Below, piece by piece: positions 23,791 to 37,726 of a stretch of 38,424 nucleotides of DNA (positions within the stretch are counted from its first letter, which is position 1; every line of letters starts with the position of its first letter). The DNA is taken from the NCBI GenBank assembly GCA_013138735.1, contig WTCE01000130.1, positions 1 through 38,424 on the forward strand, read 5' to 3'. The stretch comes from Crocinitomix sp. GTDB taxonomy: Bacteria > Bacteroidota > Bacteroidia > Flavobacteriales_D > Crocinitomicaceae. The notes below the pieces were generated by a model. The model ran no database searches, had not been told where the DNA came from, and worked only from the letters and a program-made list of their open reading frames with translations. The position numbers and the translations under genes were made by a program.

Positions 23791-24666
23791 ATGAAGTCAA
23801 TCTTTATATTCAGCCTTTTTATTTCCGCTTTTTTATCGTGCACTACAAAGGACCAAAACAATGCCATTTCACCAGAAAATGTTGACATGAGGGCCGATTC
23901 TGAACCCACCGAAACAATACAGGAGACATACGACTTAATTTTTTCATGGGAAGGGGAGTTTACAAATGAAGAACAAGAAAAGGTTAAAGCTTGGATTACG
24001 GAAATACACAGTGCTACCAACAAGACCTTAGGACAATATCGATTTGATGTCTATGTCAATATCATTCGTTCCGATTCTAAAAATCGACCAGTACCGTTTG
24101 GCTTTGCACGCAGAAGTAATGGGCAAAATCAAGTCCATTTATATGTAAATCCAACAGCAAGCTACGACGAACTTTTACTAGACTGGACTGCTCAACACGA
24201 ATTCAGTCATTTGTCCCTCCTTTACCTAGGAAAGAGAAATAAATGGTTTTCAGAAGGCTTTGCAACATTCCTGAGCCGCCAAACAATGATGGATCAGGGA
24301 TTGTACACTCAAACTGAATTTGACTCCTTATACCACAGCAAAATAACAGACGCAAAACCCTATTATAATTCAAGCACCAAAACTTTTATAGAAGTGTCAG
24401 ACAGTTTAATGGATAACCATAGCTACGGCAACATGTATTGGGGCAGTTCAACCTTTTTATTTACAATTGATAAACGTTTGCGAAAAGAACGCGATATGCG
24501 CTTTGTTGACGTAATGAAAGATTATCAGCCAAAATATAGAGATGGAGATAAGCGGCTTAAAGATGTCATTCAATCATTTGACAAAGTAATTGGTGAAAGT
24601 TGGTGTTGGGATCTGATGGTGATTTACAGAAATGAACCTTCATATAAAGTGATGGAAAACTATTGA
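23791..24666 (+). CDS. lipoprotein with gluzincin-type metalloprotease motif
   Basis: 291 residues, ATG at 23791. Lipobox SAFLSC (Cys near 16). It contains HEFSH at 136-140 and, 15 residues on, a second Glu in WFSEGFA (Glu155): the HExxH + WxxEGxA pattern of peptidase MA-type gluzincins, where the two His and the second Glu bind zinc and the first Glu is the base. The remainder is helical with KITDAKPYYNSSTKTF. So it is a predicted outer-membrane zinc peptidase. Its stop (24664-24666) overlaps by one base the ATG of the Kelch protein, a typical coupled pair. Confidence 0.8.
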   Translation: MKSIFIFSLFISAFLSCTTKDQNNAISPENVDMRADSEPTETIQETYDLIFSWEGEFTNEEQEKVKAWITEIHSATNKTLGQYRFDVYVNIIRSDSKNRPVPFGFARRSNGQNQVHLYVNPTASYDELLLDWTAQHEFSHLSLLYLGKRNKWFSEGFATFLSRQTMMDQGLYTQTEFDSLYHSKITDAKPYYNSSTKTFIEVSDSLMDNHSYGNMYWGSSTFLFTIDKRLRKERDMRFVDVMKDYQPKYRDGDKRLKDVIQSFDKVIGESWCWDLMVIYRNEPSYKVMENY

Positions 24667-25847
24667 TGAAGGTCCTCAAGTTTCTATTCATAGTATTTAG
24701 TTTAAGCCTCTCATCAAACGGAATTGGGCAGGCATTCGAATGGGAATGGGAGAGTAGCTTTAGTTATCCGCACATTGCCCGTGATGACGCGATTGCATTT
24801 GCAATTGCGGATACCATTTATTATGGTTCTGGCAATCATGGCGGTTTTGCAAATAGCAATATCTTTTATAAATACCAGGTTTCAACCAATACTTGGACGC
24901 CTATTGCATCCTTCCCAGGTCTTGCGCGTCAATATTCAACTGCAGCTACAATTGGTAATAAAGGTTATGTATGTGGTGGAATCGATCTTTTTAGCAATCC
25001 GTTAAATGATTTATGGGAATATGATCCTGCAAGTGATACTTGGACAGAATTAGCGGTATTTCCGGCTGCGGAGCGTTGGCAAGCTGCAAGTTTTGTTTTA
25101 AACGGCAAACTCTATTATGGTTCAGGACGCGGATGGGATGTGATTTACAAAGATTTTTGGTGCTTTGATCCGGTATTAAATGTGTGGGAACAAATCAGCG
25201 ATTTACCAAAACTACCTTGTTATGAAACAATTTCCTTTGAATTATATGATAAAGGCTATTTAGGATTAGGGCGCGATTGCACAGGAGTCTATCTCAATGA
25301 CTTTTGGAGTTATTTGCCTCAAGATGACCAATGGTCGCAAGAAGCAGACTTTCCTTCTGATGCCAGGTACTATGCCAAAGCTGAAGCTTTTAATGGATTT
25401 GGAATAGTGGGTTCGGGCCAAAATGAGTTGGGGCAAATATTAAGCGACTTCTGGGCTTATGACCCCTTGTTAAAATCATGGTCACAGCTTCCAAATCCGC
25501 CCATGTCTAATCGGCGGGGAATGGCTTCGGCGGCAGTTCCTTATTTTGGTGCATACTTTATTGCTGGTTTAGATGAATCCTTTAATCGATCCAAAGAAAT
25601 GTTTTGGTTAAAAGCTATTCCTGCCGCTGAAGCATCTTTTGCATTAACCTATCAGCAAACAAATAGGAGCCTATACATAACAGATATTTCGGTAGCAAGT
25701 ACTGTTTGGATCTTTGATCTAAATGGGAAAGTTTTGTGTCAAACAAACTCGGTTGATACGCATTTTCAATTGGATGTATCCAATTGGGCTAAAGGCATGT
25801 ATTTGGTGCGCATTAATGCTGAGACAAAGAAAATTGTTTTGTATTAA
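24666..25847 (+). CDS. Kelch-repeat protein with T9SS sorting domain
   Basis: 393 residues from the ATG at 24666. Signal peptide (VLKFLFIVFSLSLSSNGIGQ). The body has Kelch-type blades with the strand pattern xxGGxx...W.yDp....W..l: NDLWEYDPASDTWTELAVFP, KDFWCFDPVLNVWEQISDLP, NDFWSYLPQDDQWSQ and SDFWAYDPLLKSWSQLP. A six-bladed propeller is likely. The C-terminus WIFDLNGKVLCQTNS...LDVSNWAKGMYLVRINAETKKIVLY is a type A T9SS sorting domain, so it is secreted or surface-attached. It is translationally coupled to the metallopeptidase-like lipoprotein; the two may form a surface processing or binding unit, which is a context inference. Confidence 0.88.
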   Translation: MKVLKFLFIVFSLSLSSNGIGQAFEWEWESSFSYPHIARDDAIAFAIADTIYYGSGNHGGFANSNIFYKYQVSTNTWTPIASFPGLARQYSTAATIGNKGYVCGGIDLFSNPLNDLWEYDPASDTWTELAVFPAAERWQAASFVLNGKLYYGSGRGWDVIYKDFWCFDPVLNVWEQISDLPKLPCYETISFELYDKGYLGLGRDCTGVYLNDFWSYLPQDDQWSQEADFPSDARYYAKAEAFNGFGIVGSGQNELGQILSDFWAYDPLLKSWSQLPNPPMSNRRGMASAAVPYFGAYFIAGLDESFNRSKEMFWLKAIPAAEASFALTYQQTNRSLYITDISVASTVWIFDLNGKVLCQTNSVDTHFQLDVSNWAKGMYLVRINAETKKIVLY

Positions 25848-25887
25848 CTAGTGTCACTTTTCATTCGATTTTCTCGTCTTTTAGTTA

Positions 25888-26664
25888 ATGCGACACTCCC
25901 TAATAGTATTCTTATCCTTTTGTTCACTAGTATCTTATGCGCAACTTACTGTTGGTGGTTCAGCAGGATCTACCTGCGAAGGACAATGCACAGCTGTTAT
26001 AGATGCTTGGGCAACGGGAGGAAGTCCACCTTACAGCTACAGTTGGGACAATGGGGACACTACTAGTTTTATTGATAGTCTATGTTCAGGAGAATATATG
26101 CTAACTATATCTGATACTGCTGGGGATACTATCGTGGAACCATTTGTTGTTACAGCGAATCCAAAACCTGAGGCAACTGTCCTTACTGGATCGAGTCCCT
26201 GTCCTGCAGACTGCTGCAATGGACAATTGAGCGCCGAGATAACCGGAGGGACTCCTTCATACGTAACCTATTGGGTTTATTGTGATTCGTTCACCCCTGT
26301 TTTCGAAGACGCTGCTCCACCAGAATTATTATTCTGCGCTGGATCTTATGCTGCCGTTGTAATAGACTCATACGGTTGTCGCGACACCTCAGATTGCGTC
26401 ACACTTAACGATTGCGTAACTGAACTGTCTGAAACTCCATTAAGCCCATTTACTTGGTATTTTAATAATCAGACAATGTACTTTTCGAAGCCTTGCACAC
26501 AAATTATTATTTATTATTCGGATGGAAAAGAAATTACAAGATATAGCGGAAGCAGTAAAAACAGTTTCGAAATGAGAGATTTACTGCCAGGAAATTACAT
26601 TGGTTTATTCAAAACAGCTGATGGTACAATTTATAGAAAAAAAATTATGCTCTGGAATGATTAA
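25888..26664 (+). CDS. SprB-repeat-like secreted protein
   Basis: 258 residues; 40 bases after the Kelch gene. Signal peptide (HSLIVFLSFCSLVSYAQ). Two SprB-type repeats: QCTAVIDAWATGGSPPYSYSWDNGDTTS...LCSGEYMLTISDTAGD, and CCNGQLSAEITGGTPSYVTYWVYC...LFCAGSYAAVVIDSYGCRD. These are found in gliding and biofilm adhesins of Bacteroidota. The C-terminus (IIIYYSDGKEITRYSGSSKN...LLPGNYIGLFKTADGTIYRKKIML) looks like a T9SS sorting tail. Conserved cysteine pairs suggest disulfides. Likely a cell-surface adhesin-like protein; small compared with true SprB. Confidence 0.8.
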   Translation: MRHSLIVFLSFCSLVSYAQLTVGGSAGSTCEGQCTAVIDAWATGGSPPYSYSWDNGDTTSFIDSLCSGEYMLTISDTAGDTIVEPFVVTANPKPEATVLTGSSPCPADCCNGQLSAEITGGTPSYVTYWVYCDSFTPVFEDAAPPELLFCAGSYAAVVIDSYGCRDTSDCVTLNDCVTELSETPLSPFTWYFNNQTMYFSKPCTQIIIYYSDGKEITRYSGSSKNSFEMRDLLPGNYIGLFKTADGTIYRKKIMLWND

Positions 26665-26754
26665 GGGATTAGGGTTATTAAACCCCAAAACACAAAAGGG
26701 CCTGTATCTTAACGACACAAACCCTTCTATCAAGTTCTTTTTAAGCAAAATTTA

Positions 26755-26883
26755 CTATTTGCATACATAAATCCATACTTCCGGCTCTGGCTCTTGTCTG
26801 CCAGTATGTATATTATTACCACCTTTTACTGTGTTTAAATTTTTTACAGCTTTTACTTCGAAATTCTTGATTGATTTTTTCAT
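26755..26883 (-). CDS. candidate RiPP/natural-product precursor peptide
   Basis: A 42-residue open frame on the minus strand, between SprB-like and CarboxypepD genes, with an A-rich start context and a TATATTTG box 45 bases upstream. The N-terminal 22 residues (starts MKKSIKNFEVK, ends NTVKGG) match what I know of Bacteroidota GG-leader precursors (TIGR04149-type: charged, Lys-rich leader ending in GG). The remaining 20 residues form a distinct core, starting NNIHTGRQEPEPE and ending WIYVCK, with one Cys, one Thr and no Ser. A leader that ends in GG is the usual cleavage site for C39-type peptidase-exporters. No modification enzyme or exporter is visible within the window, so it may be an orphan, processed in trans, or served by genes outside. 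Confidence 0.6.
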   Translation of the reverse strand: MKKSIKNFEVKAVKNLNTVKGGNNIHTGRQEPEPEVWIYVCK

Positions 26884-26914
26884 CTTTTACTTTTAAATTA
26901 TATTATGATTTGAA

Positions 26915-27115
26915 TTATTTTCTATTCCAAATATAGCGCAGTTCTTTATGAAATTTCGCCTCAATTTCTGAATCTTAGGAATCAACTTCTGAAATGTCAT
27001 TTTGAGTTGCTAAATCTTTTATTGGTTTTTGCTTATTTGCTAAAATCAGGGTCACTGCTTCCTAATCAGCTATCACTATAATCACCTTTTGCAAGACTTC
27101 TGCGGTAATTTGGTA
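26915..27115 (-). pseudogene. decayed coding remnant upstream of the peptide gene
   Basis: One minus-strand frame reads as protein-like sequence (YQITAEVLQKVIIVIAD, EAVTLILANKQKPIKDLATQ followed by NDISEVDS, then DSEIEAKFHKELRYIWNRK) interrupted by two stop codons. The charge balance and heptad-like spacing suggest an inactivated gene rather than random DNA. No family can be named. It ends about 30 bases before the peptide gene's start and overlaps its -7 box. Confidence 0.3.
26928..26935 (-). promoter_or_regulatory. -7 box of the precursor peptide gene
   Basis: TATATTTG on the minus strand (26928-26935) matches TANNTTTG and predicts a leader of about 39 nt to the ATG at 26883. No clear -33 element. 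Confidence 0.4.
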
Positions 27116-27194
27116 TAATCTAACGCAGGATTATGTTTCAATTAACACTATTTAACGTTCAAATTGGTCTAATTTTTGTTACTTCGTAAAACAG

Positions 27195-27914
27195 ATGAAA
27201 GCACTTATTTTAATCGCCTTATTCGTTTCCTCTTTTGCCTATGGTCAAAGTGTTAATTATAACGACTCTTTAATTACGTTAAAAGGAACTGTAATTGATA
27301 CCAATTATAGCGTTGGATTTTACAATGTTGTTGTTTTGAATAAAACAGTAGGCAAAGGTATTTTTGGGGATTATACCGGCAAATTTAACATCACGTTTAA
27401 AAAAACAGATACCATTGGCGTTTCTGTTCATGGATACCAAACCATGTACATTTCATTTGCTGATAGTGCTTACAAAAAGGTGTATAATACTAAATTCTAT
27501 ATTAAAGAATTATCAATTGTTGCTGAAGAAGTTATTGTACGTCCCCTTAAAACCTTAGAAGAATTAAAGGAGGAACGTGCTAGCATTGCTAAACGAGAAG
27601 TAGCAACTGTTACAGTCGTTAATGCAATTGAGAGTCCTATTACCGCATTATACATGGCTTTTAGCAAACGAGAAAAAACAAAACGCTTTGTTGCTGAAAT
27701 GGAATATAAGGATCAACAATATGATGTCGTCAAAGAGATTCTAAGAGTTTATGTTCACAATGATATTTTTGACTTAACTGAGGATGATTTTGATGAATTT
27801 ATTCGATTTATAAATTTGAATGTTGAATTTCTTAAATCTGCCTCAGACTATGACTTAGTAACCTATATCAAAGCTAAGTTTGAACATTTTCAAAAAATAA
27901 AAGAAGGATTTTAG
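27195..27914 (+). CDS. CarboxypepD_reg-like exported protein
   Basis: 239 residues. Signal peptide (KALILIALFVSSFAYGQ). A beta domain at about 27-100 (ITLKGTVIDTNYSVGFYNVVVLNKTVGKGIFGDYTGKFNITFKKTDTIGVSVHGYQTMYI) has the carboxypeptidase regulatory-like strand pattern found at the N-termini of TonB receptors and many Bacteroidota envelope proteins. The rest is helical (IVRPLKTLEELKEERASIAKREV...YKDQQYDVVKEILRVYVHNDIFDLTEDDFDEF). This resembles small CarboxypepD_reg-like envelope proteins with an alpha-helical tail. Role unknown; it precedes the five-gene paralog array by 158 bases, and shares its beta-domain style. Confidence 0.75.
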   Translation: MKALILIALFVSSFAYGQSVNYNDSLITLKGTVIDTNYSVGFYNVVVLNKTVGKGIFGDYTGKFNITFKKTDTIGVSVHGYQTMYISFADSAYKKVYNTKFYIKELSIVAEEVIVRPLKTLEELKEERASIAKREVATVTVVNAIESPITALYMAFSKREKTKRFVAEMEYKDQQYDVVKEILRVYVHNDIFDLTEDDFDEFIRFINLNVEFLKSASDYDLVTYIKAKFEHFQKIKEGF

Positions 27915-28072: not shown

Positions 28073-29044
28073 ATGAAATATCTGTTAATCTGCGTACTTT
28101 TTAATTTGTCAGGAATTGTTTATGGACTTGATGAATCAATGGCTGGTTTACCCGGCTGGACTATCACGTCTGATGTTAAAGATGACTCAATCCCAGCGGG
28201 AGATGTTATAATTGAAGGCAATATCAAGATGTTTTCTAGTGCCAATCCTTTATCAGAAGTGCGGGTAGGAACGAACTCTAACGAAACCTTATCTGATAGC
28301 CTAGGGAATTTCACATTGAATGCAAAAGCAACAGATACCGTTTTTTATTGTTACCGTTCTGGTTGGTACGAAATTTACGAGCTCAATCCTAATTTTGAAA
28401 GTCAACATAGAATCACCGTTAGCGTTTACCTGAATCAGGAACGCCAATTGATGAAAAAACCAGTTATCTATTTATATAATGACGCACCTATAGAAGCTGA
28501 AGTTAAAATTGTGCCCAAAGGTGAATTCACCTTTACCTATCCTAAACATGATAAGGGGTGGAGCGTTGCTATTCAGCCAAATGGAGGTTTACTTGGTTTG
28601 AAATCGAATAAGGAATTCCCTTATCTCTTTTGGGAAGCCGAAACACAGGATTTATTCTTTGACTTTACTGAAAAGCAAATGGAAGGTTGGATCATTAAAA
28701 CTGATACTTGCGTATCCTTTCTAGAAAATCAATTGACTGCTTTAGGACTCAATGAGGTTGAACAAACAGATTTCATCACTTTTTGGGCACCAATTCTGTC
28801 AAAAAATGAATATGCTGTGGTACAATTTTTGTTGGATGATGCTTATCAAAATAAAATAGCTGAAATACAAATTACACCAAAGCCAGATGCTATGCGCCGT
28901 GTTTATTTATTAATGTCACCGCTTGATAATGCCTTTATCGGATTAAATATGGTTCCGCAAACATTTGAGCCCTTTCAACGCAAAGGTTTTACGGTGTTAG
29001 AGTGGGGCGGAACGGAATTAAATTTTTTAGACCTTAAATTTTAA
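28073..29044 (+). CDS. tandem paralog 1: CarboxypepD-like plus novel C-terminal domain
   Basis: 323 residues. Signal peptide (KYLLICVLFNLSGIVYG). An N-terminal beta region (GWTITSDVKDDSIPAGDVIIEGNIKM, then a CarboxypepD_reg-like strand set to about 120). From about 128 comes a ~195-residue domain starting KPVIYLYNDAPIEAEVKIVPKGEFTFTYP, with LFWEAE, ENQLTALGLNEVEQTDFITFWAPIL, AVVQFLLDDAYQNKIAEIQITPKP, RRVYLL and the end GFTVLEWGGTELNF. Related proteins exist in the four genes downstream (29047-33027). It has no cysteines, no lipobox and no T9SS tail, so it is presumably periplasmic or on the outer surface. The domain is unfamiliar to me by name. Confidence 0.8.
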   Translation: MKYLLICVLFNLSGIVYGLDESMAGLPGWTITSDVKDDSIPAGDVIIEGNIKMFSSANPLSEVRVGTNSNETLSDSLGNFTLNAKATDTVFYCYRSGWYEIYELNPNFESQHRITVSVYLNQERQLMKKPVIYLYNDAPIEAEVKIVPKGEFTFTYPKHDKGWSVAIQPNGGLLGLKSNKEFPYLFWEAETQDLFFDFTEKQMEGWIIKTDTCVSFLENQLTALGLNEVEQTDFITFWAPILSKNEYAVVQFLLDDAYQNKIAEIQITPKPDAMRRVYLLMSPLDNAFIGLNMVPQTFEPFQRKGFTVLEWGGTELNFLDLKF

Positions 29045-29046
29045 GC

Positions 29047-30018
29047 ATGAAACAGATCATTGCAATAGTGTTTATTATGTCAATTGGTAGCCTAGCTGCT
29101 CATGCCGAATTAAGGTTAATCGTTCCTTATACTATTATCAGCGATTCGGTTGCTGCGCAAGTGCCAAAAGGCTTTTGTAAAATAAAAGGTTCAATAATTT
29201 CGAGTGATACAAGTATTATTCGAGATGGAATTGTAGCCAATTATGGAATGACGCATAAGACTAAGATAGATGAGGGGAGTTTTGAACTCCTAATCCCTGA
29301 TACAGATAGTGTTGTGTTTTTCTATTCCGCTTTATACGGCGAAATCATCATTAATCCTTATGATTTTCAAAGTGGTCATGAAGTGATACTCAACTTTTAT
29401 CCAATTGAAGCTGGTATGATGATGAATGTAGACAAACCAGTCATATATTGTTATTCAGATCAACCCCTAACTGCTACAATTGAACTTAATTTTAAGGGTG
29501 ATTTCATATTTTCTTATCCTGCTTATAATAACGGCTGGCAAATAGAAGTTGAAGAATCTGGACTTTTAAAAACGGAAAATGGAAAAGCATATCCCTATCT
29601 TTTTTGGGAAGGAGAAACAACTGAACTTAATTTTCAAGCCAATCAAAACGGTTCTTATGATGGCTTTTATATCCAAACCGATTCAGTGACCAACTTTTTA
29701 GAGGCACAACTAACTGCATTAGGGTTAAACCGAAATGAACAGACCGATTTTATTACGTATTGGGCACCTCGCATCCTTGAAAATGAACATGTATTTATTC
29801 AATTTTTGGTAGATGAAGCCTATTCAGAAAATGTAGCTGAGATTGAGATAAGTCCCAACCCGGATAATATGCGTCGTGTATATGTTTTGTATACTGCAAT
29901 GAATGATTTGCCTGATTTTGAGATCAAGTCACAAAGCTTTGAGTCTATTAAGCGTACTGGATTCACAGTGATAGAATGGGGTGGAAGTGAAATGAATTTT
30001 AATGCAATTCAATTATGA
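29047..30018 (+). CDS. tandem paralog 2
   Basis: 323 residues, starting two bases after paralog 1's stop. Signal peptide (KQIIAIVFIMSIGSLAAHA). N-terminal beta region: YTIISDSVAAQVPKGFCKIKGSII, then TDSVVFFYSALYGEIIIN. Novel domain: KPVIYCYSDQPLTATIELNFKGDFIFSYP, YPYLFWEGETTELNF, FLEAQLTALGLNRNEQTDFITYWAPRIL, EHVFIQFLVDEAYSENVAEIEISPNPDNMRRVYVLY and GFTVIEWGGSEMNF. It differs from the others by KPVIYCYSD (a Cys instead of Leu), FITYWAPRI and its shorter N-terminal insert. The stop overlaps the next ATG in ATGA (30015-30018). Confidence 0.8.
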   Translation: MKQIIAIVFIMSIGSLAAHAELRLIVPYTIISDSVAAQVPKGFCKIKGSIISSDTSIIRDGIVANYGMTHKTKIDEGSFELLIPDTDSVVFFYSALYGEIIINPYDFQSGHEVILNFYPIEAGMMMNVDKPVIYCYSDQPLTATIELNFKGDFIFSYPAYNNGWQIEVEESGLLKTENGKAYPYLFWEGETTELNFQANQNGSYDGFYIQTDSVTNFLEAQLTALGLNRNEQTDFITYWAPRILENEHVFIQFLVDEAYSENVAEIEISPNPDNMRRVYVLYTAMNDLPDFEIKSQSFESIKRTGFTVIEWGGSEMNFNAIQL

Positions 30019-31025
30019 AAACCTTCTTAACAATACTGTTTTTTACAAGCAGTCTAACTTTGATCGCTAAAGAAAAAATTCTGCAAAGACCAGATGCATA
30101 CACCATTAAATCGGACACACTAAGCAATGACCTACAACCTGGAGAGGTTCGTGTAAAGGGGCAAGTTCTTGAACCTTATAAAGCTGGAAATCCAATTGAA
30201 GCAGCAATGATCGCTACAATTGATGGGCTAATATCAACCTATACAGATGCGTACGGAAATTATGAACTGATTATTCGAGATTCCGACACCTCGCTTTACA
30301 TGTACAGATATGGTTTTCAAGAAATCGCGATCGATCATTATGATTTTCAAGCTGGTCACACCGTTGAAATAATTTTTAGGCCTCCAACTGAGAATGTGAA
30401 AAGGACTCCCGTTAATACTGGTGGAAGTGGATACGAATCCCTGAAACCTGTCATATATCTATATTCTGATGCGCCACTTGAAGTTTCCTTGACCTTAGAT
30501 TATTTGGGCGATTTAACATTTACGTATCCTGAATATAATGCAGGTTGGAATGTGACAGTTGATCAAAACGGAATTAGTGATCCTCTTACGGAAAGAAGTT
30601 ATCCCTACTTGTTTTGGGAAGGAGAAATGGATGGTTTAGTATACGAAAAAGAAGCTGGCAATGTCTCAGGTCAAGTAATCGCAACGGACACCTTAGTTGC
30701 GTTTTTAGAGCATCAATTGACGGCAATTGGCTTAAACCGTCAAGAGCAAACCGACTTTATTACCTTTTGGGCGCCAAAAATGGCAAATAGTGAATATGTA
30801 TTCGTTCAATTCTTACTGGATGATTTGTACGCGAGCAAAGTAGCTGAATTAACCATTAATCCAGCACCTGAGGCGTTAAAACGAGTCTATTTGCTCTATA
30901 CACCATTTCAAGAAATACCAAATATTGAATTTTCACCGCAAGCATTTAAACCATTCAAACGCGCAGGTTTTACGGTGATAGAATGGGGCGGAAGCGAAAT
31001 AAAACTCAATCCCTTTCGATTATGA
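30015..31025 (+). CDS. tandem paralog 3
   Basis: 336 residues, ATG overlapping the previous stop. Signal peptide (KTFLTILFFTSSLTLIAK). YTIKSDTLSNDLQPGEVRVKGQVLE opens the beta region, which includes DAYGNYELIIRDSDTSLYMYRYGFQEIAIDHYDFQAGHTVEIIF. Novel domain from about 142: KPVIYLYSDAPLEVSLTLDYLGDLTFTYPEYNAGWNVTVDQNGISD, YPYLFWEGEMDGL, EHQLTAIGLNRQEQTDFITFWAPKMANSEYVFVQFLLDDLY, NPAPEALKRVYLLYTPF and AGFTVIEWGGSEIKL. Nearly identical in DNA to paralog 4 over stretches (38 bases at 30720-30757), a sign of recent duplication or gene conversion. ATGA overlap with the next gene. Confidence 0.82.
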   Translation: MKTFLTILFFTSSLTLIAKEKILQRPDAYTIKSDTLSNDLQPGEVRVKGQVLEPYKAGNPIEAAMIATIDGLISTYTDAYGNYELIIRDSDTSLYMYRYGFQEIAIDHYDFQAGHTVEIIFRPPTENVKRTPVNTGGSGYESLKPVIYLYSDAPLEVSLTLDYLGDLTFTYPEYNAGWNVTVDQNGISDPLTERSYPYLFWEGEMDGLVYEKEAGNVSGQVIATDTLVAFLEHQLTAIGLNRQEQTDFITFWAPKMANSEYVFVQFLLDDLYASKVAELTINPAPEALKRVYLLYTPFQEIPNIEFSPQAFKPFKRAGFTVIEWGGSEIKLNPFRL

Positions 31026-32026
31026 AGACATTCTTAACAATCCTATTATTCGCAAGTACTTTAGCAACAAAAGCTGTTGATATTTACAGAAGTGAACCGG
31101 TGACATATACAATCAAGTCTGATAAATATACCAATGACCTTTTATCTGGTCAGGTTCTCGTTAAAGGACACGTCTTTGATGCTACTGGCAATGGATTGGC
31201 TGGTGTTATGGTAAGTACAATTGACGAACGAATGTCTGCATTGACGGATTTATCAGGGGCTTATGAAATGATAATTCACGATTCAGATACTTCAATCTTT
31301 ATTTTTAAGGATGGCTATAAAGAAGTAGCTATAGCACGTTACGATTTTATGCCAGGGCATACTGTTGAAATAGATTTTATGCCTCAATTGATACCAGAAA
31401 TAATTGTGCCCGACCCTGAGCTCGAACCAGAACTTATTTACACTTATAAACCTGTCATTTATTTATATTCAGATGTGGCAATTAATGTTTCCTTGGACTT
31501 AGATTATTTGGGAGACTTGACATTTACTTATCCCGTTTATAATGAAGGGTGGAACGTCAATGTTGATTCAAATGGAATTAGTGATCCTCTTACGGAACGC
31601 GCTTACCCTTATTTATTTTGGGAGGGTGACATGGATGATTTAGAATATGAAAAGAAAGATGGAAGTCTTGAAGGTCAAATGATAGCATGTGATACCTTAG
31701 TTGAATTTCTAGAGAATCAATTAACGGCAATTGGCTTAAACCGTCAAGAGCAAACCGACTTCATCACCTTTTGGGTACCAAAAATGGCGAATAGTGAATA
31801 TGTATTCGTGCAGTTTTTATTGGATGATTTATATGCAAATAAAGTCGCTGAATTAACCGTCAATCCGAAGCCAGAATCACTCAAGCGGGTTTATTTACTT
31901 TTTACTGAGTTTGATGAAATCCCTGATCTTTGGTTTACGCCACAAGTATTTGAATCGTTTCAACGGAATGGATTTACATTAATTGAATGGGGCGGATCAG
32001 AAATATCAACAATAACAACACTTTAA
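31022..32026 (+). CDS. tandem paralog 4
   Basis: 334 residues from the ATG at 31022, which overlaps the previous stop; an earlier in-frame ATG at 30983 would run through the upstream gene. Signal peptide (KTFLTILLFASTLATKA). YTIKSDKYTNDLLSGQVLVKGHVFDATGNGLAGVMVSTIDE, then SGAYEMIIHDSDTSIFIFKDGYKEVAIARYDFMPGHTVEIDFMP, then a Pro/Glu-rich linker (ELEPELIYTY) and the novel domain: KPVIYLYSDVAINVSLDLDYLGDLTFTYPVYNEGWNVNVDSNGISD, YPYLFWEGDMDDL, ENQLTAIGLNRQEQTDFITFWVPKMANSEYVFVQFLLDDLY, ESLKRVYLLFTEF, NGFTLIEWGGSEI. Closest relative of paralog 3. Confidence 0.82.
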   Translation: MKTFLTILLFASTLATKAVDIYRSEPVTYTIKSDKYTNDLLSGQVLVKGHVFDATGNGLAGVMVSTIDERMSALTDLSGAYEMIIHDSDTSIFIFKDGYKEVAIARYDFMPGHTVEIDFMPQLIPEIIVPDPELEPELIYTYKPVIYLYSDVAINVSLDLDYLGDLTFTYPVYNEGWNVNVDSNGISDPLTERAYPYLFWEGDMDDLEYEKKDGSLEGQMIACDTLVEFLENQLTAIGLNRQEQTDFITFWVPKMANSEYVFVQFLLDDLYANKVAELTVNPKPESLKRVYLLFTEFDEIPDLWFTPQVFESFQRNGFTLIEWGGSEISTITTL

Positions 32027-32028
32027 TT

Positions 32029-33027
32029 ATGAAACTATTTACAACACTATTTTTGAGTTTGCTTGGAATATCTAGTTCATTTGCAGAAACATTACCACAG
32101 GGATCTTATACAGTTGTCTCGGATAAGTTTTCAGAAGCTGTACCTGCAGGAACCTGTATTATTCAAGGCACGGCATACGATCAATTAACAGAACTTGGAA
32201 TCTCTGGTGGTGTCGTAGGTGAAACAAGCCGTACACGGTATATCCTAACGGATGCTGAGGGTAAATTCAAGTTGAAATTAAGTGCCAAAGATTCAAGTTT
32301 CTATTTCTTTCATCAAAACTATGAAGAAATTGTATGTTGGGATTATGAATTCAAGAGCCAACATATAATCACCATCAATTTTATGGCGCAAAAAAGAACG
32401 CCAGAAGATATTTATCCCATGGCAGAAAAACCAGTGATTTACCTTTATTCAGATGCCGAAATTGCCGCCAACATCTCACTTCAACCAAAAGGAGAGTTTC
32501 TGTTTACCTATCCAACCTATGAAAATGGATGGAATGTAAACGTATCCTCAAAAGGATTAGAAGTTGACAATGTTCAATATCCTTATTTATTTTGGGATGG
32601 CACTAGCAAAGATTTGAGTTTTAATACGACAGCAGGTGAACTTTCAGGTTACTTTATTAAAACAGATTCTACCATTCAGTTTTTAGAAGCTACTTTAGAA
32701 AAACTGGGCTTTAACAGTACAGAAAGAACAGATTTCATTACCTATTGGGGGCCACGCTTAACGGCACATAATTATGCAACTGTTCAGTTTTTTGTAGGAG
32801 AGAAATATGCGAATAGTGTGGCAGCAATTAATGTCTCACCAAAGCCAGATGCACAATTAAGAGTTTATATGATTTTTCAAGGAACCGAACTTTCGGCAAG
32901 TCCCTTTCGCTTATCAACCCCTGAACTCCCGAAATTTGAACGCAAAGGATTTACTTTAATTGAGTGGGGTGGAAGTGAGTTTAAGCCAGTTCAAAATAAA
33001 GCCATTTTTGCTCAGGTGACTTATTAA
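32029..33027 (+). CDS. tandem paralog 5
   Basis: 332 residues from the ATG at 32029, two bases after paralog 4's stop. Signal peptide (KLFTTLFLSLLGISSSFA). YTVVSDKFSEAVPAGTCIIQGTAYDQLTELGISGGVVGETSRTRYILTDAEGKFKLKL..., then novel domain: KPVIYLYSDAEIAANISLQPKGEFLFTYPTYENGWNVNVSSKGLE, YPYLFWDGTSKDL, FLEATLEKLGFNSTERTDFITYWGPRLTAHNYATVQFFVGEKYANSVAAINVSPKPDAQLRVYMIF, KGFTLIEWGGSEF. This is the most diverged of the five (e.g. TYWGPRL), and it has a short extra tail (KPVQNKAIFAQVTY). It ends the cluster. Confidence 0.8.
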   Translation: MKLFTTLFLSLLGISSSFAETLPQGSYTVVSDKFSEAVPAGTCIIQGTAYDQLTELGISGGVVGETSRTRYILTDAEGKFKLKLSAKDSSFYFFHQNYEEIVCWDYEFKSQHIITINFMAQKRTPEDIYPMAEKPVIYLYSDAEIAANISLQPKGEFLFTYPTYENGWNVNVSSKGLEVDNVQYPYLFWDGTSKDLSFNTTAGELSGYFIKTDSTIQFLEATLEKLGFNSTERTDFITYWGPRLTAHNYATVQFFVGEKYANSVAAINVSPKPDAQLRVYMIFQGTELSASPFRLSTPELPKFERKGFTLIEWGGSEFKPVQNKAIFAQVTY

Positions 33028-33715: not shown

Positions 33716-33740
33716 TAATTAAACAAAAAATGTTTAATTA
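33716..33740 (+). promoter_or_regulatory. hairpin abutting the recombinase start codon
   Basis: TAATTAAACA (33716-33725), loop AAAAA, TGTTTAATTA (33731-33740): a perfect 10-bp stem whose last base is the A of the ATG at 33740. In the mRNA the start codon would be next to or partly inside the stem, which could hinder ribosome access. Confidence 0.6.
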
Positions 33741-34570
33741 TGAAAACTTTACGAGAAAGGCTTCTGCAAGAGATGCAGTTCAGAAATTATAGTCCTCGGA
33801 CAATAGCCACATATCTAAGTTGCTTAACAGGACTTTCAAAGCATTATAATGAATCTCCGGATAAGATAAACTTGGAAAAAGTGAAAACTCTTTTGCATAA
33901 TTCGGTCATAAATGGATGTAGTGTTTCATTTGTAAACCAAACAATAAGCGCCGTTAGAGTGCTTCATGAGGGAGTATTGAAACAAAAGTGGGAACCGCTG
34001 TCTATAAAGCGACCTCGAAAAGAAAAGAAATTACCCGTTATTCTTTCTCAGCAAGAGGTCAAATCAATAGTCACAGTACTTTCAAATCTAAAACACAGAG
34101 CTATATTGAATTTAGGTTATTCTGGTGGACTTAGAATTGGTGAAGTGATCAATTTGAAAGTTGATCATATCGATTCAAAACGAATGCAAATCAGAATTGT
34201 TGGCGGAAAAGGAAAAAAAGATCGTTACACGGTGTTATCCCAATCCACCTTAGATTTACTACGGGATTATTACAAAGCTTATCAGCCAAAGGACTGGTTA
34301 TTCTATGGTTATAATGCCGCAAAACAATATAGTGCCTCGAGTATTAATAAGGTTTTGGCAAGGGCTTGCACTAAAGCGAATATTAGTAAAGTTGTCACTT
34401 ACCATACTTTGCGACATTGTTTTGCTACTCATTTACTAGACCAAGGAACTAGCATTCAAATTATTCAGCAGCTTCTTGGTCATGCAAATATAAGTACTAC
34501 TACTATGTACTTGCATGTACAGCAATATCGACTCGATCAGGTTATTAGCCCAATGGATATTGTTTTATGA
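33740..34570 (+). CDS. tyrosine recombinase (IS91-associated type)
   Basis: 276 residues. The SAM-like N-terminal core domain (residues 1-90) precedes a catalytic domain with all residues present: Arg132 (GGLRIGEV), Lys157 (GGKGKKDRY), His222 and Arg225 (HTLRHCF), His248 (LLGHANI) and the nucleophile Tyr257 (TTMYLHV). Length and motifs match the XerD-like recombinases that Flavobacteriia carry next to IS91-type transposases. Its stop overlaps the transposase start by 4 bases (ATGA at 34567-34570), which ties them together. It appears intact although its partner is broken. Confidence 0.9.
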   Translation: MKTLRERLLQEMQFRNYSPRTIATYLSCLTGLSKHYNESPDKINLEKVKTLLHNSVINGCSVSFVNQTISAVRVLHEGVLKQKWEPLSIKRPRKEKKLPVILSQQEVKSIVTVLSNLKHRAILNLGYSGGLRIGEVINLKVDHIDSKRMQIRIVGGKGKKDRYTVLSQSTLDLLRDYYKAYQPKDWLFYGYNAAKQYSASSINKVLARACTKANISKVVTYHTLRHCFATHLLDQGTSIQIIQQLLGHANISTTTMYLHVQQYRLDQVISPMDIVL

Positions 34571-35098
34571 AGCCCTATATAAAACCCAAATACGAAATGG
34601 CTGATGTCTTTTCAAAGTATGGGTCAGCTTACAGAAATAGTAGAAAATTACCCTTATCGGATCATAAAGTAATGAATGCTATTGAAAGCTGTCGAACTGA
34701 GGCTTTAGGAGGACATTTAGATAAATGTGCAAAATGTGATTACACAAAAAATGCTTATAACTCTTGCAGAAACAGGCATTGCCCAAAATGTCAGGGGATG
34801 AATCAGCTCAAATGGATTGATAAACGGGTGAATGAGATGTTACCCATTGGCTATTTTCATCTTGTATTTACAATTCCTCAAGAACTGAATAGTTTATGTT
34901 TAATGAATAAGAAAGAAGAATCTAGTCTTAATACGCAAAATCCTAAAAATCAGTTTGAAAAAGCATTTTGGTGATCTCGAAACTTGGCAACAACAATTAC
35001 TTAGACTCACAGGATTTAATGCTTTAAAATGTCCCAAATGCAAGAGTAAAAAAATGCAAACAATCAAGGTTTTTGAGGGATACTTTGCTACTGGATAA
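34567..35098 (+). pseudogene. IS91-family transposase with internal deletion
   Basis: The first frame encodes the usual N-terminus: a Cys-rich zinc-binding domain (LDKCAKCDYTKN...CRNRHCPKCQG, 50-80) and the start of the catalytic core (IGYFHLVFTIPQELNSL). It then loses frame and stops at 34974. A second frame, from about 34952, supplies the C-terminus (DLETWQQQLLRLTGFNALKCPKCKSKKMQ) to a TAA at 35096-35098. The middle of the protein, with the HUH and Tyr residues, is missing: about 130 codons come before the deletion and about 45 after, versus ~380-400 in an intact protein. So it cannot be active. Remnant of an IS91-type element. Confidence 0.8.
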
Positions 35099-36530: not shown

Positions 36531-37726
36531 ATCGAGTAGACGGCTCTACCCATAATTGAGCAGAGTTCGCCTCTCACACCACCAAGCGTACGGGTCTCGT
36601 ATACAGCCGTTCGATAATGATACTTGATCGTTTGTAGTACTCTGATAAACTAACATAACCCTTCATCTTTAACCGTTTTATAGTAATCGTAGTGCCAAAA
36701 ATGGGGCTTTGAGCAACAGCCCATCCTCCCATTCTAGTTCTACTCCATGCATAGGCTTGACCTTGTTTTCTTCCTAAACGAATAAAGTTTTTCCTTTTTC
36801 GCTCTGGTTTAGCTCATAATTAATCTTTTTTTTATTGGTGTTCGTGATTTCCGCTTTGCTCCAATTCTTCCAATGATGCCAAATGCAATACCTTAGCCGA
36901 TTTCTTAACCATTATTCATAGTTGTTTATTTTCAATGGTAATCATGAATTCCGCAAAAGCTCCATTTCTTCTAACTTCTTAAGTTTCCCTTGAATGGAGG
37001 CAAGCTTAAAGTAATTTATCCAACCTCTAATTAACTGATTGATTCGTTTTATACGTTCATCAAAACTAGCGGGAATGGTCTTTCTGGTCAGGTATTTAAG
37101 TTTTCGCTTAAGTTCTTTCCATTTGGACAATTTAACCACCAATTGATATTTGCCTCTTTCACCTTTCTTGTAAGTTGGTACAAAACCATAACCTAAAAGA
37201 TTAAATGTTGAGGGGTTACGCACACCACTCTTCTCTCGATTGATTGGAAGCTGGAATTCTTCTCGCAGAAACTTGTAAATACTATTACCTACTCGTTTTT
37301 CTGCTTGCTTTTAACATAGATACTAAAATCATCAGCATAACGTACGTAGTGGTGTCCTCGTTTCTCTAGTTCTTTATCCAACTCATTGAGTAAGTCGTGA
37401 CTTTGGAAATCTCCCTCGGTAAGACAAATACCCTTTTGAGCTATTACTGCTGAATCTACTATTTCGGTTAACCTTGTAAAAAAAATAAAGTTTTGGACTT
37501 CGCAAAGATGTGCTTCCCTTCCAACCTTATCCTTCAAAAGCTGCGCTTTTTCTTTTCCAGTTTATGTTCGTCCGTACAGCTCACGCAGTCTGGCTTACTT
37601 CAGTCCTAACCTCACGGCTAACAACCTTGCCACTTGCTTTGCTTAGGGTCGTTACTCCCTCGCATTAAGGACTTTCACCTTTTGGGATGTTCCGAAAAGG
37701 AACTATATTTGCCATTCGAGGCACAC
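36531..37726 (-). mobile_element. degenerate group II intron
   Basis: Read on the minus strand, the 5' end begins GTGTGCC (37726 down), the GUGYG start of a group II intron, followed by the AAAGGTGAAAGTCC element typical of domain I. At the other end, ACGAGACCCGTACG (about 36590-36603) is a domain V-like hairpin, then a domain VI-like stem with GTGTGAGAGGC and ...CTACTCGAT ending at 36531 (AY 3' end). Between them lies a broken maturase gene. The intron is only about 1.2 kb, half the normal size, so domain I-IV parts and the start of the maturase are lost. The insertion lies downstream of the MORN gene and is antisense to the neighbouring genes. Confidence 0.75.
36620..37560 (-). pseudogene. 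group II intron reverse transcriptase/maturase remnant
   Basis: Fragments in different frames: 37289-37537 contains LLNELDKELEKRGHHYVRYADDFSIYVKSK, the YADD active-site motif of the reverse transcriptase. 36942-37310 has GNSIYKFLREEFQLPINREKSG then LLGYGFVPTYKKG...FDERIKRINQLIRGWINYF, the maturase (GIIM) domain. Further down, WLRNRLRYCIWHHWK and then KPERKRKN...QAYAWSRTRMGGWAVAQSP (36620-36810) form the C-terminus. At least two frameshifts and two short insertions break it, and the RT N-terminus is missing, so it is inactive. Confidence 0.8.

Follow-up and report, generated by a model that had tools for sequence, protein, structure and literature searches.

In this study, a small orphan GG-leader peptide gene under what looks like LytTR control was identified on contig C132 of a Crocinitomix sp. 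genome (assembly of 6.84 Mb in 188 contigs, 97.5% complete), the whole of which, 38,424 nucleotides in length, is referred to here as the window. By its sequence the gene is GG-leader precursor-like, and its relatives form a family of solitary peptides of 37 to 52 residues with a gapless leader and variable cores, which are probably exported. The common promoter is what makes the peptide interesting: the repeat-and-box pattern there is also found before a microviridin precursor elsewhere in the genome and in another genus, and this is a new observation. The occurrence of double-glycine peptides in Gram-negative bacteria is no novelty as such, since Dirix et al. reportedly screened for them in 2004. 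In the part of the open-licence literature that was covered, no paper described this peptide family in its title or the start of its abstract, and nothing was found in the open-licence literature under 'grasp-with-spasm' or 'DUF805b'.

The gene occupies positions 26755 to 26883 on the minus strand, stop codon included, and is supported by its open reading frame, by leader-profile scores and by the family search. The sequence-only reading had claimed a 42-residue peptide with a Lys-rich KGG leader, a 20-residue core with one Cys near its end and an upstream TANNTTTG box, and the analysis agreed with it on all of these points. The leader MKKSIKNFEVKAVKNLNTVKGG (26818-26883, minus strand), which was delimited by the leader alignment, the profile and the codon-position differences, has 22 residues, six of which are Lys and the last three of which are KGG. 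The variable core NNIHTGRQEPEPEVWIYVCK (26755-26817, minus strand, with the stop codon), delimited by the leader alignment, has 20 residues with a single Cys in the penultimate position, and the box, a pattern match with the letters TATATTTG, lies at 26928-26935 on the minus strand, 44 nt 5' of the ATG. The further claim that the gene is antisense to its neighbours was right about the strand, which is opposite to that of the flanking ORFs, but there is no overlap: the gene is intergenic, and the 258-aa ORF at 25888-26664 is convergent with it while the ORF at 27195-27914 is divergent. No match to the peptide was obtained in NCBIfam (E<=10), Pfam or PHROGs, and the Rfam scan at gathering thresholds gave no RNA element at the peptide. 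The proposed kinship to the TIGR04149 GG-leader family of Bacteroidales was not upheld; the window peptide shares with that family a short Lys-rich leader ending in KGG, but it has no match to the model, and the site was absent from the matches of the TIGR04149 genome search (E<=10).

That the frame is more than a chance ORF is supported by its leader. A profile built from 12 other leaders, with the window excluded, gave the window peptide 28.7 bits (E 3.1e-8), compared with 8.4 bits for the next window ORF and 11.7 bits for the best of 40 shuffles; the independence of this test is incomplete, because eight of the 12 leaders had been found with the window peptide as search seed. A second profile, of eight leaders adjoining TIGR04192-type ATP-grasp genes (one of which ends in GA instead of GG), gave 15.3 bits against a best of 11.7 bits in 100 shuffles. 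This second profile is unselective and marks a GG leader, not specifically a grasp-with-spasm leader, as it also gave 14.4 bits to a leader in the lanthipeptide-like cluster on C23 and 12.0 bits to a leader on C66, while the window relatives on C157 and C107 obtained only 8.3 and 5.7 bits. Moreover, when the window leader was compared with three UBA2104 leaders, the differences at the three codon positions were 3/3/12, 3/3/12 and 5/5/9, and such a preponderance of third-position differences is expected for translated sequence under constraint. The KGG motif alone is little proof, and a crude KGG rule was dropped as evidence of a gene, since it selected one ORF in the window and also one such ORF in 7 of 100 Markov shuffles. 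The shortness of the frame and these seven shuffles are what could be said for a chance ORF; with both profile scores above every shuffle tried, relatives in other genomes and a promoter layout common to different genera, that explanation is extremely improbable.

The sequence-only reading had asked for similar leaders in related genomes, for a conserved KGG position and for more KGG peptides in the genome; similar leaders, a GG in a constant register and further GG-leader peptides were found. A peptide search of 40 relatives gave more GG-leader peptides within the Crocinitomix genome itself, and a contig scan with a three-row leader alignment found one relative among 146 pattern matches, the record of Flavobacteriales bacterium UBA2104 (G103; contig C29, DCYS01000022.1), which belongs to another genus. 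Without UBA2104 rows, the leader alignment found matches at E<=0.01 in five of 150 family genomes, including five places in UBA2104; with six UBA2104 rows, it found matches at E<=0.05 in 13 of 240 family genomes. In the latter search the own-genome matches were the window peptide and those on C107, C157 and C59, all four of which were rows of the query alignment, and UBA2104 gave seven, the seventh at E 0.037. A peptide on contig C9 of the congener G004, absent from the query alignment, was found at E 3.0e-6, together with a weak second place in that genome. The family thus numbers four members in the Crocinitomix genome, seven (one of them weak) in UBA2104, and one with a weak second in G004. 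Eleven leaders, omitting the seventh UBA2104 peptide with its shorter leader, form a gapless alignment that runs from position -20 to the GG, with the GG in one register throughout; among these 11, F is conserved at -15 (L twice), K at -12 (N once), V or I at -10, N at -8 (S and G once each), V, I or L at -4 and K at -3 (N once). The cores vary, but those of C157, C59 and G004 share similar ends (RAPRYKGSRG, RVSRYRGTRNE and RTPRYRGDRG).

Upstream of the box lies a direct repeat, recognised by pattern and alignment, whose promoter-proximal copy TTCAGAAATTGA (26961-26972, minus strand) and distal copy TTCAGAAGTTGA (26982-26993, minus strand) are identical at 11 of 12 positions and spaced 21 bp apart, with the repeat at a fixed distance 5' of the -7 box, 25 bp from its second copy. 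When the 1.29-kb segment around the peptide gene was searched in nine congeneric genomes, the best non-self match was C70 28593-28737 (75% identical, E 1.8e-17), which corresponds to 26871-27014 on the minus strand of the window; this match of about 145 bp stands just 5' of a microviridin precursor on C70 and just 5' of the peptide in the window. The C70 precursor belongs to NF033738 (68.6 bits, cut-off 26) and is followed by MvdC/MvdD-type ligases. The microviridin-type cluster there (L081, 7269-10116, minus strand) comprises MvdC/MvdD-type ATP-grasps and two precursors whose cores resemble TxKYPSDxDE, and only its second precursor has the promoter in common with the window peptide. Microviridin precursors are marked by a PFFAKFLE-like leader motif and a TxKYPSDxDE core. 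The window peptide, for all its common upstream region, differs from the microviridin and marinostatin precursors of NF033738 in having neither motif by reading and no NCBIfam match, and as it lacks the leader motif that MvdC/MvdD normally use, its maturation by these enzymes was judged unlikely.

The repeat pattern was followed through further sequences. In its strict form, with at most three mismatches, it matched only the window and C70 in the nine genomes, and the backward control gave one match, in G002. In 738,569 bases, the half-site with box matched 16 times, six just 5' of GG-leader peptides and ten elsewhere, whereas the pair with box matched five times, each just 5' of a GG-leader peptide (the window peptide, the C70 microviridin precursor and UBA2104 peptides a, c and e), compared with one match in total over 12 whole-DNA shuffles and none for the reversed pattern; this pattern was composed after the sites had been seen, the bases were chosen around such peptides, and the independent promoters number four, as the window and C70 are homologous. 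A cleaner test is the transfer of TCAGMAR, the half-site core taken from the window and C70, to UBA2104, where it occurred in five of seven peptide upstreams and in 3 of 40 controls (p 7e-4); two narrower forms gave 3/7 against 2/40 (p 0.019) and 3/7 against 1/40 (p 0.008). Furthermore, 12-mer repeats with at least 10 matches at a spacing of 21 were found in 7 of 19 GG-peptide upstreams and 10 of 142 controls (p 0.001, an optimistic value, as three of the 19 come from a single array and two are a homologous pair), and the next commonest spacing, 15, was found in 3 of 19.

Several features suggest that a LytTR-type regulator may act at this promoter. In UBA2104, peptides a and b are followed directly, in the same orientation, by a pair of overlapping ORFs, of which the second is a His_kinase, and by a LytTR-domain response regulator, and one of the UBA2104 sites with pair and box stands 5' of the histidine kinase and LytTR regulator. 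The peptide-adjacent kinase reads as two overlapping ORFs (L149, 12983-15809, minus strand), whether through an assembly artefact or because the gene is truly damaged. Direct repeats about two helical turns apart and upstream of the promoter, the layout of a LytTR operator, are found in the window with its 21-bp spacing. The half-site TTCAGAAATT differs from what we take to be the LytTR consensus, a point against LytTR control, while the repeat ACAGTTAAT 5' of the C59 peptide presumably equals that consensus. The Crocinitomix genome has 33 LytTR genes compared with 7 in G004 and 8 in UBA2104, at about twice the genome size of either. Also against the proposal, none of the 33 lies on C132 or beside the window peptide, the stretches around all 33 held no pair-and-box pattern before kinase or LytTR genes, and none is a clear orthologue of the UBA2104 regulator, the best reaching 38% identity. 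GG peptides near the 33 genes were found only in the stretches of C54, C106 and C158. According to PMC11347149, LytTR sites are paired 9-bp direct repeats 10 to 13 bp apart and mostly upstream of -35, and that layout fits the repeat spacing and the position before the window promoter.

With respect to export, the sequence-only reading had seen neither modification enzyme nor exporter nearby, and no C39 or TIGR04192 match, the two families searched, was found on contig C132; of the genes for which it had advised a wider search, a C39 exporter, a radical SAM gene and a cluster with LanM-cyclase-like domains are present on other contigs. Among four C39 matches in the genome, one is a full-length ABC exporter on C126 with a 749-aa open frame, adjoined by an OEP/TolC gene and by a gene that resembles a membrane-fusion partner and has no Pfam match. 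In G002 an exporter that adjoins grasp-with-spasm genes shares 83% identity with this one, and two UBA2104 ORFs share 73-77% with it; lone C39 exporter genes exist in both the Crocinitomix genome and UBA2104. The UBA2104 exporter reads as two overlapping ORFs (L246, 6642-8617, plus strand; assembly error or real damage), a point that weighs against C39-dependent export, as does G004, which has family peptides and no C39 match: the gene may be missing from the assembly, which is 94% complete, or the peptides may need no C39 exporter. As expected of a C39 substrate, the window peptide carries a short, charged leader with Gly-Gly at -2/-1, and an exporter gene is available in the genome. The C39 protease LahT, according to PMC6363468, reads hydrophobic Val-4, Leu-7 and Leu-12. 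The window leader has V at -4 and L at -7, but K at -12; across the 11 leaders -4 is kept, -7 is not conserved and -12 is Lys (N once), a mixed picture in which the -12 residue departs from the preference described in that source and counts against C39-dependent export. Further maturation genes were six TIGR04192 matches, four of them above the cut-off (the C62 match with an internal stop) and two being the C70 MvdC/MvdD-type pair, a cluster on C23 with LanM-cyclase-like and thiopep_ocin domains, and a radical SAM/SPASM gene on C71. Directly 5' of GG-leader precursor genes, a DUF805b RNA (RF02914) was found twice on C66 (L057, 7990-8025 and 8615-8650, minus strand) and once on C23 (L059, 8321-8354, plus strand), and a similar element was seen by eye, below the Rfam gathering score, before precursors on C134, C36, G002 C12 and G008 C499.

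The genomic site is peculiar to this genome among its nearest relatives. The peptide gene and the 258-aa ORF of the plus strand (25888-26664, one SprB repeat) lie together in an extra segment (25846-27136). G003, G005 and G006 lack this segment: there the kelch gene (window 24663-25847) directly adjoins the gene at 27195-27914, leaving no orthologue at the same site in these three genomes. The ends of the segment were considered for a mobile-element origin, and no convincing terminal repeats were seen. Short own-genome matches of the segment (E 2.3e-6, 1.5e-5 and a weaker third) near 27082-27129, close to its right end, indicate a small dispersed repeat, with copies of about 40-50 bp and 82-87% identity in C71, C26 and C84. 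Elsewhere in the window, five tandem plus-strand ORFs of 323-347 aa at 28073-33027 look paralogous by eye (common ending near GFTxIEWGGSE), one of them scanned without a Pfam match; ORFs that by eye resemble a tyrosine recombinase and the first part of an IS91-type transposase lie at 33740-34974 (plus strand), and a group II intron D1-D4-3 match (46.8 bits, gathering 32) lies at 37423-37621 (minus strand).

Taken together, the data are most simply explained by a real gene for an exported GG-leader peptide that would be switched by a LytTR regulator along with the C70 microviridin cluster, cleaved by a C39 exporter and released as a bacteriocin-like effector, an explanation to which we give about an even chance and which is favoured by the leader-profile scores and by the gapless family in two other genomes. 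The empty site in the three nearest congeners, and the occurrence of the peptides as scattered single copies, would suit a precursor that was copied recently or is decaying and serves no role at present, but leader differences concentrated at third codon positions and a promoter layout retained in another genus make that quite improbable. A RiPP precursor matured in trans, with a leader recognised by a grasp-with-spasm ATP-grasp/SPASM pair from elsewhere in the genome and core Thr or Lys cross-linked with Glu before export, is rather unlikely. Its merits are the leader, which has KxFE at a similar spacing to the GG and, on a weak profile, may be of the same class as the TIGR04192/TIGR04193 precursors, the 15.3 bits from the ATP-grasp-leader profile, and the similar leaders that adjoin TIGR04192 ATP-grasps in the Crocinitomix genome and in G002; moreover, 10 other genomes gave weaker family matches, and among the seven whose neighbour was scanned five had TIGR04192, the other two being short pieces cut by locus ends. 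The profile is, however, the unselective one described above, the nearest relatives are solitary, the core is unlike those of grasp-with-spasm precursors and has no repeated graspetide-like motif, and no ATP-grasp/SPASM gene adjoins the peptide, C132 being without a TIGR04192 match. The core may be modified in some way.

It is also conceivable, and we consider it unlikely, that the released core is a pheromone, a signal for a sensor kinase that would act through a LytTR regulator on the microviridin cluster and on the promoter of the peptide itself. Peptides adjoin kinase and LytTR genes in UBA2104, C54 and C106, and a C54 peptide, which weakly resembles pheromone models, passes TIGR01847 bacteriocin_sig (16.1 bits, cut-off 15.7); but no kinase stands beside the window peptide, and several different cores under one operator type are a better fit for effectors. 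The genome has other GG mini-peptides, several with cores of 12-14 residues such as QSSSIIIEDIAGF, which look like candidate signal peptides: four on C54 (L229, 650-1316), divergent from a Reg_prop/Y_Y_Y/His_kinase and LytTR pair, five on C106 (L228, 2751-6294) ahead of such a pair, two on C158 (L234, 5492-5858), three on C150 (L058, 2593-3004) adjoining a His_kinase, and one on C27 (L238, 7215-7337).

According to the exported-effector explanation, which we prefer, a LytTR-type response regulator would bind the two half-sites just 5' of the promoter and would activate the window peptide jointly with the microviridin cluster on C70. The conserved leader may then direct the peptide to the full-length C39 ABC exporter of C126, which would cleave after KGG, and the 20-residue core so released may belong to a varied set of small peptides whose simplest reading is as bacteriocin-like effectors, in a manner that would resemble the Blp-type regulons of Gram-positive bacteria. 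In the gallocin regulon (GSP-BlpRH), as described in PMC8545106, one 30-bp operator precedes all regulated promoters, and by analogy the diversity of cores behind one operator type points to effectors more than to a single signal. The likeness to such Gram-positive LytTR regulons lies in the short GG-leader peptides, in one repeat-bearing operator type before several peptide genes and in the kinase and LytTR regulator that adjoin some peptides in UBA2104. The differences are that the promoter box is of the Bacteroidota kind, that the peptides are scattered and the operator a predicted one, that no regulator stands beside the window peptide, and that the operator is shared with a microviridin precursor.

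More generally, and with somewhat less than even confidence, we propose that some Bacteroidota may have LytTR-governed regulons of scattered hypervariable GG peptides, a Gram-negative counterpart of the Blp/Pln systems, in which a tandem-repeat operator would tie orphan peptides to a microviridin inhibitor and, in the other genus, to a peptide-kinase-regulator set. Orphan GG peptides have no gene cluster to flag them and fall below the usual gene-calling length, and library models pass them by, as four family members and relatives had no NCBIfam match where scanned. If the operator marks orphan GG peptides, they could be located through the promoter pattern, which could also lead to the two-component system that governs them. 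If true, the proposal would provide a concrete example from Bacteroidota of two-component regulation that is linked to peptides and coupled to a protease inhibitor.
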